Shown here: positions 32,302 to 61,358 of the stretch, in pieces
Layout of the letters: each line of letters opens with the position of its first letter
Position numbering within the stretch: position 1 is the stretch's first letter
Origin: Trichocoleus sp. FACHB-46
Lineage (GTDB): Bacteria > Cyanobacteriota > Cyanobacteriia > FACHB-46
Reading direction: 5' to 3'
DNA: 64,000 nt
Assembly (NCBI RefSeq): GCF_014695385.1
Contig: NZ_JACJOD010000006.1
Coordinates: 372,001-436,000, forward strand
The notes under the pieces: generated by a model
The model's input: the letters and a program-made list of their open reading frames with translations, nothing else
What the model was told of the DNA's origin: nothing
Databases searched by the model: none
Program-made: the position numbers and the translations under genes

Positions 32302-34092
<1,791 letters not shown>

Positions 34093-55111: not shown

Positions 55112-55744
55112 CTAGAGTAGATAGAGCAGCAGAAAGAGTAGCACCCAGATTACGTCTACAAAGTGCCAATAGAGTTCAGCCGCTTCTACGCCAAAGTGGT
55201 TTTCCTTCGAGTAATGGTTGGGCTTGAGCGATCGCCACAGCACACCCAGCATCAGCACTAAACCGAAGCAAACGTGTAAACCGTGGAAGCCAGTCAAGAC
55301 ATAGAAAGTGCTACCAAACAAGTTTGAGGTGAGGCCAAATTCTAGATGCTTGTACTCATAGATCTGACCGCACAAGAAGACGGCTCCCATCAGAGCGGTG
55401 ACGGCAAACCAAGTCCGCAACCCTTTCACATCGTCCTTTTTGACTGCTGTATCGGCTTGGTGAATCACAAAGCTGCTAGCAATCAGAATGACTGTGTTGA
55501 TGCTGGGCAAAAGTAATTCCAGCTTGGGTGTCCCTGCGGGGGGCCAACTCGGAGCCACAGCCCGGAAGGTTAAATAAGCCGTAAATAAGCCCAGGAAGAT
55601 CATGCCCTCAGCAATCAGGAAGACAATCACGCCTAGTAAGCGATAGTCGTGATGCTCAACACCGTGTGCCGAAACTTCTGACACTTCGGCTTGGTGATGG
55701 TAATTTAGCTCAGCTTTTGACGGATCAATCGTGGAACCTTGCAT
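55112..55744 (-). CDS. ctaE: Cytochrome c oxidase subunit III
   Basis: 210 residues with five hydrophobic helices. Family signatures are GMIFLGLFTAYLTFRAVAPSWPP, FYVLTGFHGLHVCFGLVLML and the C-terminal AAELYWHFVDVIWVLLFLLLY. Subunit III of the aa3-type terminal oxidase in cytoplasmic and thylakoid membranes; it does not carry metal but stabilises proton uptake. Third gene of ctaCDE with a 49-base gap from ctaD, and followed by a terminator. Confidence 0.96.
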   Translation of the reverse strand: MQGSTIDPSKAELNYHHQAEVSEVSAHGVEHHDYRLLGVIVFLIAEGMIFLGLFTAYLTFRAVAPSWPPAGTPKLELLLPSINTVILIASSFVIHQADTAVKKDDVKGLRTWFAVTALMGAVFLCGQIYEYKHLEFGLTSNLFGSTFYVLTGFHGLHVCFGLVLMLGVLWRSLKPNHYSKENHFGVEAAELYWHFVDVIWVLLFLLLYLL

Positions 55745-55793: not shown

Positions 55794-57566
55794 TCAGCGG
55801 TTGTGACTTTCGCCTTGGCGATCATCAGGATGAGCTGCAACCGCTGGATCAGGCTCAGCCCTGAGAGCAGAGCTAGGACCCGCTGATAAAGCTGGATCGC
55901 GGGCATCTGAGAACGGTACATCTACTTGAGTGGCGCGATTGCCCATCCCATAGTCGTAGGGGCCTGTAGCCAAAACGGGATCACTCTCAAAGTTTTCCAC
56001 AGGGGGTGGGGAAGTCGTCATCCACTCTAAGGTGAGACCTTGCCAAGGGTTGTCGGGGGCTTTGGGACCCGCTATCCAACTCCAGCAGGCATTCACAATG
56101 AAAGGAATCGTAGAGAGCGCCAGCAAATAGGCACCGATCGAACAAATTAGGTTCAGGGTGGCGAACTTGGGATCGTACTCAGCAATGCGTCGGTTCATCC
56201 CTTCCATGCCTAGCTTGTGCATGGGCATGAAGGTGATATTGAAGCCGACTAGCATCATGGCAAAGTGAATTTTGCCCCAGGTTTCATTCAGCATCCGCCC
56301 CGTCATTTTGGGGAACCAGTGATAGAAGCCAGCGTAGATGCCAAAGACGCTACCACCAAACAGGACGTAGTGTAAGTGGGCGACGACAAAGTAAGTGTCG
56401 TGGACGTGAATATCAAAGGGGACAGCCGCCACCATCACGCCGCTGATGCCACCGATCACAAACATGGAGACAAAGCCCATCGCAAACAGCATGGCGCTGT
56501 TAAGCCGTAGCTTGCCGCCCCAGATGGTAGCCAGCCAACTGAACACCTTGATCCCCGTGGGGACGGCGATCACCATTGTCGTGATCATGAAAAACATGCG
56601 CAGCCAAGCGGGGGTGCCGCTGGTGAACATGTGGTGTGCCCACACGATCAGGCCCAAGAAGCTAATCGCCAAGCTGGAGTAAGCGATCGCCTTATAGCCA
56701 AAGATGGGCTTGCGAGCATGGACTGGCAGAATTTCTGAGATCATGCCAAAGAACGGCAAGATCATAATGTAAACGGCGGGGTGCGAATAGAACCAGAACA
56801 AATGCTGGTAAACAATCGGGTCACCGCCACCCGTGGGGTTGAAAAATGCCGTTCCCGCCAGCAAATCAAAGGCTAAGAGAATCAGTGCGCCTGCTAGAAC
56901 TGGAGTCGCAATCAGCGCTAGGGCTGAAGTGGAGAGCATAGCCCAGCAGAACAACGGCATCTGGTTGTAGCCCATGCCAGGGGCCCGCATCTTCACAATC
57001 GTGACGATGAAGTTGACCGCTGCCAGGATCGAAGAGGTTCCAAGCAACAGCACACTCATGATCCAGATTGCTTCTCCAGCCTTGCCAGCAGCCATAGTGC
57101 TGAGAGGCGGATAAGAGGTCCAACCTGAACCTGGTGCCCCCACCAGAAAGCTACTAAGGAGCAATAAGCCTGCGGGTGGAATAATCCAGAAGGCGATCGC
57201 ATTCAGGCGGGGGAAGGCCATGTCTCTGGCCCCAATCAGTAGGGGCACCAAGAAGTTGCCAAAGCCACCCGTCCCTGCTGGCACGATCCACAAAAAGATC
57301 ATGATCGTGGCGTGGACCGTAAATAAGCTGTTGTAAACCTCGCGGCTGACAAAATCAACTTCTGGCGTTGCCAGTTCGGTGCGGACGGCAGTTGCCAGGA
57401 CACCACCAATTAAATAGAAGATAAACGTAGTGACTAGGTACTGAATCCCAATCACCTTGTGGTCAGTACTAAAGCCAAAATATTCGCGCCAATGGGTCAC
57501 TTTAGGCTCGGAGCCGTGGGCGGGGATGTTGGCAGTTTCTTGAAGCTGTGCTTGTGTCATAGCCAA
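55794..57566 (-). CDS. ctaD: Cytochrome c oxidase subunit I
   Basis: 590 residues with twelve helices. Low-spin heme ligand His85 (LFTVHATIMIFLW), CuB ligands His262 and His311/His312 (WAHHMFTSG), and heme ligands in HDTYFVVAHLHYVLFGG. The CuB-His region reads WFYSHPAVYI: Tyr266 is the conserved crosslinked tyrosine, but the position before Val265 is Ala264 rather than the Glu of HPEVYI oxidases, and Tyr260-Ser261 precede the His. This is the YSHPxV arrangement of A2-type oxidases. The polar C-terminal tail (about residues 520-590) is long and variable. Receives electrons from CuA of CtaC. Confidence 0.97.
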   Translation of the reverse strand: MAMTQAQLQETANIPAHGSEPKVTHWREYFGFSTDHKVIGIQYLVTTFIFYLIGGVLATAVRTELATPEVDFVSREVYNSLFTVHATIMIFLWIVPAGTGGFGNFLVPLLIGARDMAFPRLNAIAFWIIPPAGLLLLSSFLVGAPGSGWTSYPPLSTMAAGKAGEAIWIMSVLLLGTSSILAAVNFIVTIVKMRAPGMGYNQMPLFCWAMLSTSALALIATPVLAGALILLAFDLLAGTAFFNPTGGGDPIVYQHLFWFYSHPAVYIMILPFFGMISEILPVHARKPIFGYKAIAYSSLAISFLGLIVWAHHMFTSGTPAWLRMFFMITTMVIAVPTGIKVFSWLATIWGGKLRLNSAMLFAMGFVSMFVIGGISGVMVAAVPFDIHVHDTYFVVAHLHYVLFGGSVFGIYAGFYHWFPKMTGRMLNETWGKIHFAMMLVGFNITFMPMHKLGMEGMNRRIAEYDPKFATLNLICSIGAYLLALSTIPFIVNACWSWIAGPKAPDNPWQGLTLEWMTTSPPPVENFESDPVLATGPYDYGMGNRATQVDVPFSDARDPALSAGPSSALRAEPDPAVAAHPDDRQGESHNR

Positions 57567-57649: not shown

Positions 57650-58777
57650 TTAGCTAGCAGTACTACCAACAGTATCCGCATGATGCATTTGATGCATGCT
57701 ATGGGGAAGTTCCTGGAGGGCTGCTGCGCTGATGCCTAAATCTTGGGTGTAAGGCGCTAAAAATTCATCGGTAGATAGCTCGGCTGGGTTAGCCGCGATC
57801 GCCTGGGTTAAGTCTGCTGATGCAGTTGCCTTCTGACTTTGAACCCAATTATCAAAGTCTCCAGGGGCCTGAACCAAGACTTTAGTTTTCATCGCACCGT
57901 GGTAGGCACCGCAAAGCTCGGCACAAATCAGGGGATATTCGCCAACTCTATTAGGCGTAAAGCGTAGTTCACTCTGCAAGCCAGGCACTGCATCTTGCTT
58001 CAAGCGAAATTCTGGTACCCAGAAGGCATGAATCACATCGTTGGCAGAGATGTTGAGCTTAACTTCGCGCCCTGCCGGGACATGCAACTCAGCCGCAACA
58101 ATACCGCTGTCTGGGTAAGTAAAGATCCAGGCGAATTGCAAGCCTGTGACGTTCACCACCATTTCGGGGGCTTTGCCTTGCTTATCAGGTGTTGCCCCTA
58201 CCTTGCCTGCGGTAACTCCTTCACTCGGAGCATCCTTGCGCTGAGGAATCGTTTCATTTCTAACCGCAGCTGTCGCCGGATCTTGCAGAGCCTTCTCTTG
58301 CTCTAGTTGATTGCGATTTTCTGTGGCGGGTGCATCCGTGAGGGTGGCCGCGATCGCCGCTCCAGGCATTTGAGCGATCCGCTCTGGTTTAGGAGCATGG
58401 GCAGCCGCGTGATTCATGGGATCAACCCCCCCTTCCCGCAGATAAACCTCGAAGCTATAGACCGAAATACCCAAAACAATGATGGCGGGGATCGCGGTCC
58501 AAAGGATTTCCAGGGGAATGTTGCCGTGGATGGGAGGCCCGTCTGTATCGTCCCCCTCACGCCGTCGGAATCGAATGATGGAAACAATGAGGACTCCCTG
58601 AACTAACAAGAAAATGCCAGTTCCGATAGTCATCATCACATTGAAGAGCCCGTCTACGAGAGAAGCTTCTTCAGAAGCTGCAATTGGCAACAAATCATGA
58701 TTTTGGCCGTACCAAACACTCACGAGTGTCAGTAGGATGCCAGCAATCATGGCTGAAATAGCGCTTGGGATTTTCAC
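57650..58777 (-). CDS. ctaC: Cytochrome c oxidase subunit II
   Basis: 375 residues. Two transmembrane helices (about 8-24 and 46-68 or 90-112 depending on processing) lead into a cupredoxin domain with CuA ligands His250 (DVIHAFWVPE), Cys285, Glu287, Cys289, His293 and Met296 (CAELCGAYHGAM). Between the last helix and the CuA domain there is an extra Ala/Pro/Glu/Lys-rich segment (about 117-205). The C-terminus ends in a Met/His cluster (HSMHQMHH, about 359-366). Both are unlike short canonical subunit II. First gene of the ctaCDE operon; the 500-base upstream region is shared with divergent ctaA. Confidence 0.96.
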   Translation of the reverse strand: MKIPSAISAMIAGILLTLVSVWYGQNHDLLPIAASEEASLVDGLFNVMMTIGTGIFLLVQGVLIVSIIRFRRREGDDTDGPPIHGNIPLEILWTAIPAIIVLGISVYSFEVYLREGGVDPMNHAAAHAPKPERIAQMPGAAIAATLTDAPATENRNQLEQEKALQDPATAAVRNETIPQRKDAPSEGVTAGKVGATPDKQGKAPEMVVNVTGLQFAWIFTYPDSGIVAAELHVPAGREVKLNISANDVIHAFWVPEFRLKQDAVPGLQSELRFTPNRVGEYPLICAELCGAYHGAMKTKVLVQAPGDFDNWVQSQKATASADLTQAIAANPAELSTDEFLAPYTQDLGISAAALQELPHSMHQMHHADTVGSTAS

Positions 58778-59277
58778 GGCTAGTTAGAGAGTCCTATCAA
58801 AACTAAGTTTGAGATTAAGTAGCAACTAATTCTTTATTCATGAGTTCGGATCTCATTAAATGAGGAAATTCAACTCAGAGACTTCCCACAAAACTGAATT
58901 AATTTGCTAAATGCAAATAGGATCATCAAGCTTTATCAGTGCGATCTACCTACCAAGGTAAAGCAGGGAGTTAGGAAGATCGGTCGTCATTGTATATCTT
59001 TAGGAATTTCTTCGGGATCGCACCGAAGAGAGATGAATCAAGCGCTAGAAGTGTTTATCCTAGGTCTGAATTTTACACGGGTTTAACTTTTCAAAGTCAG
59101 ATGTAACCACTCACGGCTTGCTTCACAATCCGAAGAAATTCCTAAACCTACCTCTATCTCAGGATAGCGTCCTTAAAGTAATAACTAGAGCCCTTCATCC
59201 TGAAAATCCAGTGTTAGGGTGAGGATAAGAGATGGCTCAAATCTTTGTAAATTTTGATTTTTGTTAGGGTACCGCTT
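58778..59277. other. Divergent ctaC/ctaA regulatory region
   Basis: 500 bases without a supported gene. It contains an exact 17-base inverted repeat (58999-59015 and 59130-59146). An ORF of 60 codons at 58904-59086 overlaps one arm and has no family resemblance. Promoters for the oxidase operon and for heme A synthesis must both lie here. Confidence 0.5.
58999..59146. repeat. 17-base exact inverted repeat between ctaC and ctaA
   Basis: TTTAGGAATTTCTTCGG at 58999-59015 recurs as its reverse complement at 59130-59146, with 114 bases between. The core GGAATTTC/GAAATTCC is itself partly palindromic, which is common for operators bound by dimeric regulators. Confidence 0.85.
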
Positions 59278-60252
59278 ATGACAGATTCTGTCTTACCTCG
59301 CCACCCTGAATCAGCGACAGAGTCATCCCAGCTCATTCAATGGATCTCACGCTTTGTCATGCGGATGGCGATCGCGACGTTGCTGTTGATGGCGATTGGC
59401 AGTGCTACCCGAGTCATGAATGCTGGATTAGCCTGCCCCGACTGGCCTTTGTGCTATGGCGAGTTGGTGCCCCGCCAGCAGATGAATCTGCAAGTGTTCC
59501 TAGAGTGGTTTCACCGCTTAGATGCCGCCCTTCTAGGTTTGTCTTCGCTCGCTTTATTTGGAGTTACTTGGTGGAATCGCCGCCAATTGCCAGCTTGGTT
59601 GCCTTGGTCTGCCACGCTGGTAGTGAGCTTAATTGTGTTTCAAGGAGCGTTGGGAGGGCTGACGGTTACTGAACTCCTCCGCTTCGACATCGTTACGGCT
59701 CATTTGGGAACGGCGCTGTTATATTTCACGACGTTGCTCGTGATTCGCATGGCATTGGTGCCTTACCAAGGCACAGGCACCGTTGGCCAACTTCCCTGGG
59801 TCAGCTTGAGCGCCGCTGTTTTCGTCTATGCTCAAAGCATTTTAGGCGCGTTAGTTGGCTCTCAGTGGGCATTACACCAATGCTTTGGTGCCGCCCAGCT
59901 TTGCCAAGTCATGAACAGCCATATCGCTGGAGTGGTGCCCGCTAGTTTAGCCACCATTGCAACGGTGTGGCTCGCTTGGCGAACCCCTGCGCTCAGCCCC
60001 CTGCTGCGCCAATTTGCCAACTGGATTGCAGGTTTGTTGGTGTTGCAAGTTGCCTTGGGGATCGCTACATTTCGCTTACACCTACAAGTTGAACCCCTGA
60101 CTGTGGCTCACCAAGCAATCGGTGCTGGCTTACTCGGAACGCTGGTAGCGTTTACGGTGCTGGCTCTTCGCGATCGCGCTAGTGCTAAAGCTACTGAGTC
60201 AACAACCTCATCAGGGCAATCCTTGCCGAGTGCTCAGTCTGAACCTGCCTAG
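59278..60252 (+). CDS. ctaA: Heme A synthase (COX15/CtaA)
   Basis: 324-residue membrane enzyme oxidising the C8 methyl of heme O to give heme A. Eight helices; family signatures GSATRVMNAGLACPDWPLCYG, EWFHRLDAALLGL, DIVTAHLGTALLYF and LTVAHQAIGAGLLG hold the heme-liganding histidines. A Cys pair, HQCFGAAQLCQVMNSH, in the C-terminal half matches bacterial type CtaA. ATG 59278 is preferred over an in-frame start at 59254. ctaB follows 110 bases later, and the oxidase operon it serves lies divergently next to it. Confidence 0.96.
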   Translation: MTDSVLPRHPESATESSQLIQWISRFVMRMAIATLLLMAIGSATRVMNAGLACPDWPLCYGELVPRQQMNLQVFLEWFHRLDAALLGLSSLALFGVTWWNRRQLPAWLPWSATLVVSLIVFQGALGGLTVTELLRFDIVTAHLGTALLYFTTLLVIRMALVPYQGTGTVGQLPWVSLSAAVFVYAQSILGALVGSQWALHQCFGAAQLCQVMNSHIAGVVPASLATIATVWLAWRTPALSPLLRQFANWIAGLLVLQVALGIATFRLHLQVEPLTVAHQAIGAGLLGTLVAFTVLALRDRASAKATESTTSSGQSLPSAQSEPA

Positions 60253-60362
60253 CTTCTTTTCTGGCAAGACCTGAAAGAACAGAGTCAGGCCATTGATGGC
60301 TTACAAATCAGTAGATGTATGGCTCTGCTGTTGTAGCCTGCAAGTTTTATAGGAACTAAATA

Positions 60363-61358
60363 ATGCAAGAAACGCTTTGGACTCAAGCCCCCCGCCGCAA
60401 CCAAAACTTGGTTCAGGTTATTCAGAGCTACTACCAACTCACCAAACCTCGCATTATCCTGCTGCTGCTAATTACGACTGCGGGTGGCATGTGGATTGCA
60501 GCCGAGGGCCAAGTTAATCCGCTGCTCCTGCTCGTGACGCTGACGGGTGGTACTTTGGCAGCGGCTTCAGCGAACACGATCAACTGTTTATACGATCGCG
60601 ATATTGACTATGTGATGGAGCGGACTCGCCATCGACCCCTACCGTCTGGACGAGTGCAGCCTCGGGATGCGCTGATTTTCGCGCTCGCCCTAGCTTCAAT
60701 TTCCTTTTCTTTGCTGGTAGTCTTTGCCAATCTACTCAGCGCCCTGCTAGCGATGTCGGGCATTTTGGTCTATGTCTTGGTCTATACCCATTGGCTCAAA
60801 CGGCACAGCACCCAAAACATTGTGATTGGCGGAGCTGCGGGTGCGATCCCACCCTTAGTGGGTTGGGCGGCTGTGACAGGTGATCTGAGCTGGGCCGCTT
60901 GGGTGCTGTTTGCAATTGTCTTTTTCTGGACACCACCGCATTTCTGGGCCTTGGCGCTGATGATCCGTAAAGACTACGCGAGTGTTGGCGTGCCGATGTT
61001 GCCCGTGGTTGAAGGAGAAGCAGCAACGGCTCGGCAGATTTTGTGGTACAGCTTGCTCTTGATCCCCGTCACGCTACTGCTGGTTTATCCGCTGCATGTA
61101 ATGGGCGCTGTGTACGCAGTCGTGGCATTGCTGCTGGGTGGAGTCTTGGTTCAGAAGGCATGGCAACTGATGCAAGCTCCTGAGGATCTAGACCAAGCGC
61201 GATCGCTGTTTAAGTATTCCATTCTCTACATGATGCTGCTTTGTGCAGGCATGGTAGTTGATAGTCTACCTGTCACCCATCAACTCTTGAGTTTCTGCAC
61301 CGAGCATTTGCAAGCTCTCATCAGCGCCATTCCGATGCTGCAAGGTCTAACTGTTTAG
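60363..61358 (+). CDS. ctaB: Protoheme IX farnesyltransferase
   Basis: 331-residue UbiA-superfamily membrane prenyltransferase that converts heme B to heme O, the substrate of CtaA. The first Asp-rich motif is in [20 protein letters not shown], followed by [10 protein letters not shown]. The second conserved block is [20 protein letters not shown] and GVPMLPVV. About nine helices. Its position with ctaA and the oxidase genes confirms its role. The ABC ATPase gene follows after 58 bases. Confidence 0.96.

Follow-up and report, generated by a model that had tools for sequence, protein, structure and literature searches.

Histidine- and methionine-rich segments of a cyanobacterial cytochrome c oxidase subunit II as possible copper collectors

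The subunit II of cytochrome c oxidase (CtaC) encoded in the window, the whole stretch of 64,000 nucleotides of Trichocoleus sp. FACHB-46 DNA analysed here, carries two segments whose His/Met density exceeds chance, a patch in the opening part of the linker that precedes the CuA domain and a cluster close to the C-terminus. We tentatively propose, while stopping short of calling it probable, that in the ordinary CuA-type subunit II these two segments act in cis as copper collectors. Since Cyanobacteriia seem to be without the usual helpers that load CuA, CtaC may partly collect its own copper. The segments, their distribution, their constraint within the genus, the near-absence of the loader families and the contrast with the CuA-less homologue ARTO are direct observations and are described first.

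The gene and its two His/Met-rich segments

The ctaC gene (57650..58777, minus strand) starts with a GTG codon and, by the open reading frame list and its translation, specifies 375 residues. Its identity, already given in the first-pass annotation of this DNA, stands: Pfam finds both COX2_TM (70.3 bits, cut-off 22.8) and COX2 (55.1 bits, cut-off 22), and the PCuAC domain PF04314 is absent from its Pfam matches. The CuA (cupredoxin) domain, placed at residues 207-303 (57869..58159, minus strand) by the COX2 match and the invariant ligand columns, keeps intact the spacing HX34CXEXCX3HX2M (H250, C285, E287, C289, H293, M296), described as the CuA ligand motif (PMC9145763). All six ligand columns are invariant across 109 aligned rows. 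An AlphaFold2 model of the subunit alone, built from a 109-sequence alignment, reaches a mean pLDDT of 81.4 (a model from 18 sequences was poor, at 45.0), and its best Foldseek matches are solved COX2 chains, with 7au6_B at the top. The gene sits in a ctaCDE cluster, adjoined downstream by ctaD (55794-57566, minus strand; Pfam COX1) and ctaE (55112-55744, minus strand; Pfam COX3), while upstream and divergent lie ctaA (Pfam COX15-CtaA) and a UbiA-family gene (59254..61358, plus strand) that we take to be ctaB from its position and from knowledge of the family. As a query this CtaC matches one gene in the genome; an ARTO subunit II query has two matches, and the one listed is this same ctaC. 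The open reading frame thus reads as a genuine, ordinary cyanobacterial CuA-type CtaC.

The linker runs from the end of TM2 (Y112) to the start of the CuA domain (V207), bounds drawn from the alignment and the model, and comprises the 94 residues 113-206 (58160..58441, minus strand), rich in Ala, Pro, Glu and Lys. At its start lies a Met/His patch that the first-pass annotation had missed, residues 119-138 (DPMNHAAAHAPKPERIAQMP; 58364..58423, minus strand), visible in the sequence, in the class-wide enrichment described below and in the dN/dS values. Further along comes an insert that marks the long form of the linker, residues 156-184 (58226..58312, minus strand), which contains DPATAAVRN and was delimited by a motif survey and by the helices of the model (155-164 and 167-172). 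Two stretches of the linker, residues 135-147 and 178-186, have pLDDT below 50. Beyond the CuA domain a C-terminal helical extension, residues 330-357 (NPAELSTDEFLAPYTQDLGISAAALQEL; 57707..57790, minus strand), bears an EFLAPY-like motif and is modelled as helices at 336-347 and 351-355. The tail motif HSMHQMHH follows at residues 359-366 (57680..57703, minus strand), read directly from the sequence, and the last 15-20 residues have a pLDDT of about 60. The first-pass annotation had the protein end in this motif; the motif is there, but ADTVGSTAS follows it, so the end was off by nine residues.

For a chance background we took 274 non-overlapping stop-to-stop open reading frames of at least 180 residues from 464 kb (the window plus 20 stretches of the contig). 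CtaC alone has six His/Met in any eight residues, and three of the 274, CtaC included, have at least three His in their last 20 residues. The only other one to equal the His/Met count of CtaC in the last 20 residues is the Cpn60 chaperonin (window 32302-34089, plus strand), which ends in a Met/Gly run (MGGMGG...).

Within the genus, both linker and tail are kept in all three genomes, which are all those present in the order search; a linker and tail of random composition in close relatives, which the first-pass annotation had named as grounds for abandoning the idea, is not what we find. HSMHQMHH is identical in the three, and two of its codons vary, synonymously. On the few changes that three genomes provide, dN/dS is 0.016 for the CuA domain, 0.033 for residues 113-140 and 0.063 both for residues 141-206 and for the last 20 residues.

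Linker patch and tail across the class and in ARTO

We surveyed CtaC more widely by means of a phylum search, in which 151 of 292 genomes were CtaC-positive, together with fetched stretches, named genomes (the best 80 loci) and another search of 28 genomes. The CtaC set was picked by hand among the matches listed and by the CuA motif (one locus, L110, had no open reading frame with the motif), and the resulting alignment holds 214 distinct proteins from 220 open reading frames, 202 from the class Cyanobacteriia and 12 from sister classes; 65 representatives share less than 70% mutual identity.

This CtaC has in common with those of other Cyanobacteriia the COX2_TM and COX2 domains, the CuA spacing, the gene cluster and the linker patch; it differs in the long-form insert, which it has in common with part of the class, and in the HSMHQMHH tail of its genus. 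All 202 aligned class proteins carry a linker (40-105 residues, median 65; none is linkerless), which rules out a linker peculiar to this genome. The first-pass annotation had counted about 90 extra Ala/Pro/Glu/Lys-rich residues; its composition was right and its length close to the 94 found, but as the linker is class-wide, the surplus specific to the long form is only some 30 residues. The DPATxxVR motif that marks this form occurs in 64 of the 202, and close variants of it are seen in some of the rest.

Linker His is nearly universal, with at least one in 194 and at least two in 186 of the 202 class proteins, and it is concentrated: His accounts for 7.3% of the first 35 linker residues and 0.3% of the remainder, and Met for 9.3% and 1.6%, respectively. 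Among the 65 representatives, 94% of linker His fall within these first 35 residues, compared with a shuffled mean of 56% and a maximum of 68%. The Met/His patch, as judged from the alignment, is a class-wide feature of cyanobacterial CtaC. The CtaC of the sister non-photosynthetic classes share the COX2 fold with its CuA ligands; however, in the 12 that were read (from genomes that can hold further copies) the linker has only 11-15 residues, 1 of 12 has a His there, Met makes up 6.0% of the linker, and 11 of 12 have a CxxCH motif near the C-terminus.

The tail behaves differently from the linker patch across the class. At least three His in the last 20 residues are found in 29 of the 65 non-redundant CtaC, and 36 are without such a cluster. 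Where present, the cluster comes after the helical extension, whose EFLAPY-like motif is matched by a loose pattern in 45 of the 65 representatives, and it takes varied forms (HSMHQMHH, LHPPAHHEHHNS, LQHMHPQMHHHL, GGDMHMMHMSH). The last of these ends a divergent CtaC (L199, the locus of G195) and is even more Met-rich. Mapped on a quick tree from which linker and tail were excluded, and in which 34 of 62 inner branches are open, the tail-His state shows 15 changes, of which at least seven are forced by starred branches; the shuffled mean is near 21, so the state is also clustered by kinship. The tail across the class thus reads as a composition gained or lost repeatedly, its positions drifting and not conserved. 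The alignment of CtaC that the first-pass annotation had called for therefore gives a divided answer, the linker patch being class-wide and the tail fixed in the genus, but with tail positions that shift beyond it.

The seven representatives of one family with small genomes (f20, which we infer to be picocyanobacteria) retain two His in the linker and have no cluster in the tail. Replacement of linker His and tail His by one another is a trend (Fisher p 0.066) that is not significant in tree-based pairs, and clear mutual replacement was rejected. One protein, L080, apparently the sole CtaC of its genome (G118), has neither linker His nor tail cluster and yet keeps its CuA ligands intact; Pfam finds no Sco match in that genome. 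A second, L060, likewise lacks both at the thresholds used.

A useful contrast is provided by ARTO subunit II, a homologue of CtaC in the same organisms that is described as having no CuA (PMC6616624). The set was assembled from the loci that best match a single ARTO protein, with five others added; a usable open reading frame was present in 33 of 35 loci, and the sample leans to one type. In it the linker between TM2 and the cupredoxin domain has at least two His in 30 of 33 proteins, often as GPMEHxH, as in CtaC, whereas the CuA ligands are missing and none of the 33 has at least three His in the last 20 residues. The ARTO linker pair also occurs as HLHNP (loci L257-L291). After clustering, the tail comparison is 29 of 65 CtaC against 0 of 11 ARTO (Fisher p 0.005). 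A CuA-specific linker patch was rejected, because ARTO keeps the linker His; the pair rather suggests a role common to both oxidases. The tail cluster, in the sample examined, appears confined to CuA-bearing subunits. The suggestion of the first-pass annotation that the tail resembles copper-binding motifs gains from this contrast, but as a statement about the whole class it suffers from the shifting His/Met positions and from the 36 of 65 proteins without a cluster.

It might be that linker and tail are simply disordered and drift freely, their His/Met enrichment being what flexible sequence tolerates, with no metal function. The unconserved tail positions and the 15 changes of His state on the tree would fit this, as would the existence of L080 and the unstructured parts of the linker in the model. 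However, the enrichment is confined to one part of the linker, the tail clusters stand far above the genome background and are absent from ARTO, and dN/dS within the genus is low in both linker patch and tail, though on few changes. We consider free drift unlikely.

Copper-loading families and a factor in trans

Several protein families are associated with the loading of CuA, and one account treats them mainly in alphaproteobacteria (PMC6431628). PCuAC works with Sco in bringing copper to CuA, and CtaK (YtkA) is a CuA assembly factor of Bacillus subtilis (PMC9145763). For cyanobacteria, the ATPases CtaA and PacS are reported to supply copper to the oxidase and to plastocyanin, feeding the thylakoid and the periplasm, and the accounts in question name no loading factor for CuA or CuB (PMC7558416, PMC4284471). 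Within the open-access literature we found no report of Sco absence in cyanobacteria, of a role for His/Met in CtaC or of the overall pattern presented in this account.

We searched 76 CtaC-bearing class genomes, picked from the CtaC-positive ones, for five Pfam families, taking absence as no Pfam match at E 0.001. Sco gave two weak matches, one over the cut-off. That one (L192, in G013) is an AhpC-TSA protein instead, scoring 151 bits for AhpC-TSA and 22.9 for Sco, and the other (L193, in G038) resembles it by eye. Cox11 and PCuAC (PF04314) were each found in 0 of 76, Caa3_CtaG gave one weak match with none over the cut-off, and CtaK/YtkA (PF13115) gave two matches with one over the cut-off; these four counts concern the 76-genome set, and the sister-class and wider results given below concern Sco. 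The only CtaK domains over the cut-off are a tandem pair (62 and 58 bits) in L292, the locus of G172. The genome of the present ctaC has no match to PF02630 (SCO1-SenC) and none to CtaK. In 14 control genomes the same families were matched, Sco in 6, Cox11 in 1, PCuAC in 3, Caa3_CtaG in 2 and CtaK in 2.

A wider draw of 388 class genomes, taken irrespective of CtaC status, matched Sco in seven, five over the cut-off and two strongly. The two strong ones, L294 (G429) and L295 (G451), are real Sco domains at 93 and 63 bits; three others, L296-L298, score 21-23 bits. By eye, the neighbours of the Sco gene in G429 look native (there is a leuB-like gene), and those in G451 foreign. Another search detected Sco in none of 16 class genomes, against 11 of 12 sister-class genomes. 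Cyanobacteriia thus seem to have almost no detectable Sco, Cox11, PCuAC or Caa3_CtaG. Scarcity of Sco coincides across classes with a His-rich linker, but gain of the linker and absence of Sco form one event on the tree, so that only one independent instance stands behind the correlation.

These results could also mean that another factor, acting in trans, loads CuA, and that the patches serve as its docking site or as a buffer for metal (copper, nickel or zinc) and not as the loader. The known families are nearly absent where the CuA ligands are intact, and the linker patch, shared with ARTO, need not serve CuA. Binding of nickel has a precedent too: CopM of Synechocystis is a His/Met-rich periplasmic protein that binds copper, and binding of nickel by His-rich sequence is reported for it as well (PMC4335983). 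On the other hand, no candidate factor was found in a search limited to five Pfam families, and the tail cluster is, in the sample examined, restricted to CuA-type subunits. We regard a factor in trans as quite unlikely. The least successful alternative, which takes up the docking idea of the first-pass annotation, sees in the linker a spacing or contacting element that alters the seating of the CuA domain or the docking of cytochrome c6 or plastocyanin. The analysis brought no evidence for docking, and we hold this alternative very unlikely. The insert does recur as a motif and is modelled as partly helical, in excess of what a bare spacer needs, and its helix could be a contact element; but linker length varies over 40-105 residues within one class and the His/Met bias is left unexplained.

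Copper collection in cis

If CtaC does collect its own copper, then copper reaching the lumen or periplasm would be caught by the flexible His/Met segments of CtaC itself. The tail would hand it to CuA, and the linker patch, which ARTO has too, would pass copper on in a less specific way, possibly to CuB as well. The binding of copper, its transfer and the physiological need for the segments are the parts of this proposal that we infer. Counted in its favour are the concentration of His/Met in the linker, the excess of the tail over both genome and ARTO, the purely synonymous variation of HSMHQMHH and the scarcity of the loaders, which together suggest such a function. Counted against it are the 36 of 65 proteins without a tail cluster, L080 without either segment, the drifting tail positions, the linker His of ARTO, the single-event correlation and the weak trade-off between linker and tail. 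Loading and buffering of copper, both offered by the first-pass annotation, would look alike in sequence; what it had observed is partly confirmed, and its interpretation is partly supported.

The known systems offer partial parallels. In PCuAC the C-terminus is often extended by an unstructured segment, rich in His and Met, that carries Cu2+ (PMC9145763), and the CtaC tail would do in cis what that extension does in trans. The resemblance of these flexible segments is in composition only, and PCuAC differs in being a separate soluble protein whose domain is found neither in this CtaC nor in the 76 genomes. CtaK ends in EEEHSHHH (PMC9145763), a His-rich C-terminal end like that of this CtaC; however, it is a separate lipoprotein of another family, over the cut-off in 1 of 76 genomes and not in this one. 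Added copper is reported to rescue Sco and CtaK mutants, and CuA to form with no protein factors given reduced thiols and available copper (PMC9145763).

A broader and more doubtful possibility is that oxygenic cyanobacteria replaced Sco, PCuAC, Cox11 and CtaG by copper-collecting segments that belong to the oxidase subunit itself: a linker patch of old standing, common to aa3 and ARTO, and His/Met tails that arose repeatedly on CuA-type subunits only. The combination of scarce loader families, His/Met segments on the recipient and contrast with a CuA-less paralogue makes the gap in CuA and CuB loading testable by mutation; if in-cis collection is true, assembly of CuA in these organisms could be partly self-sufficient.
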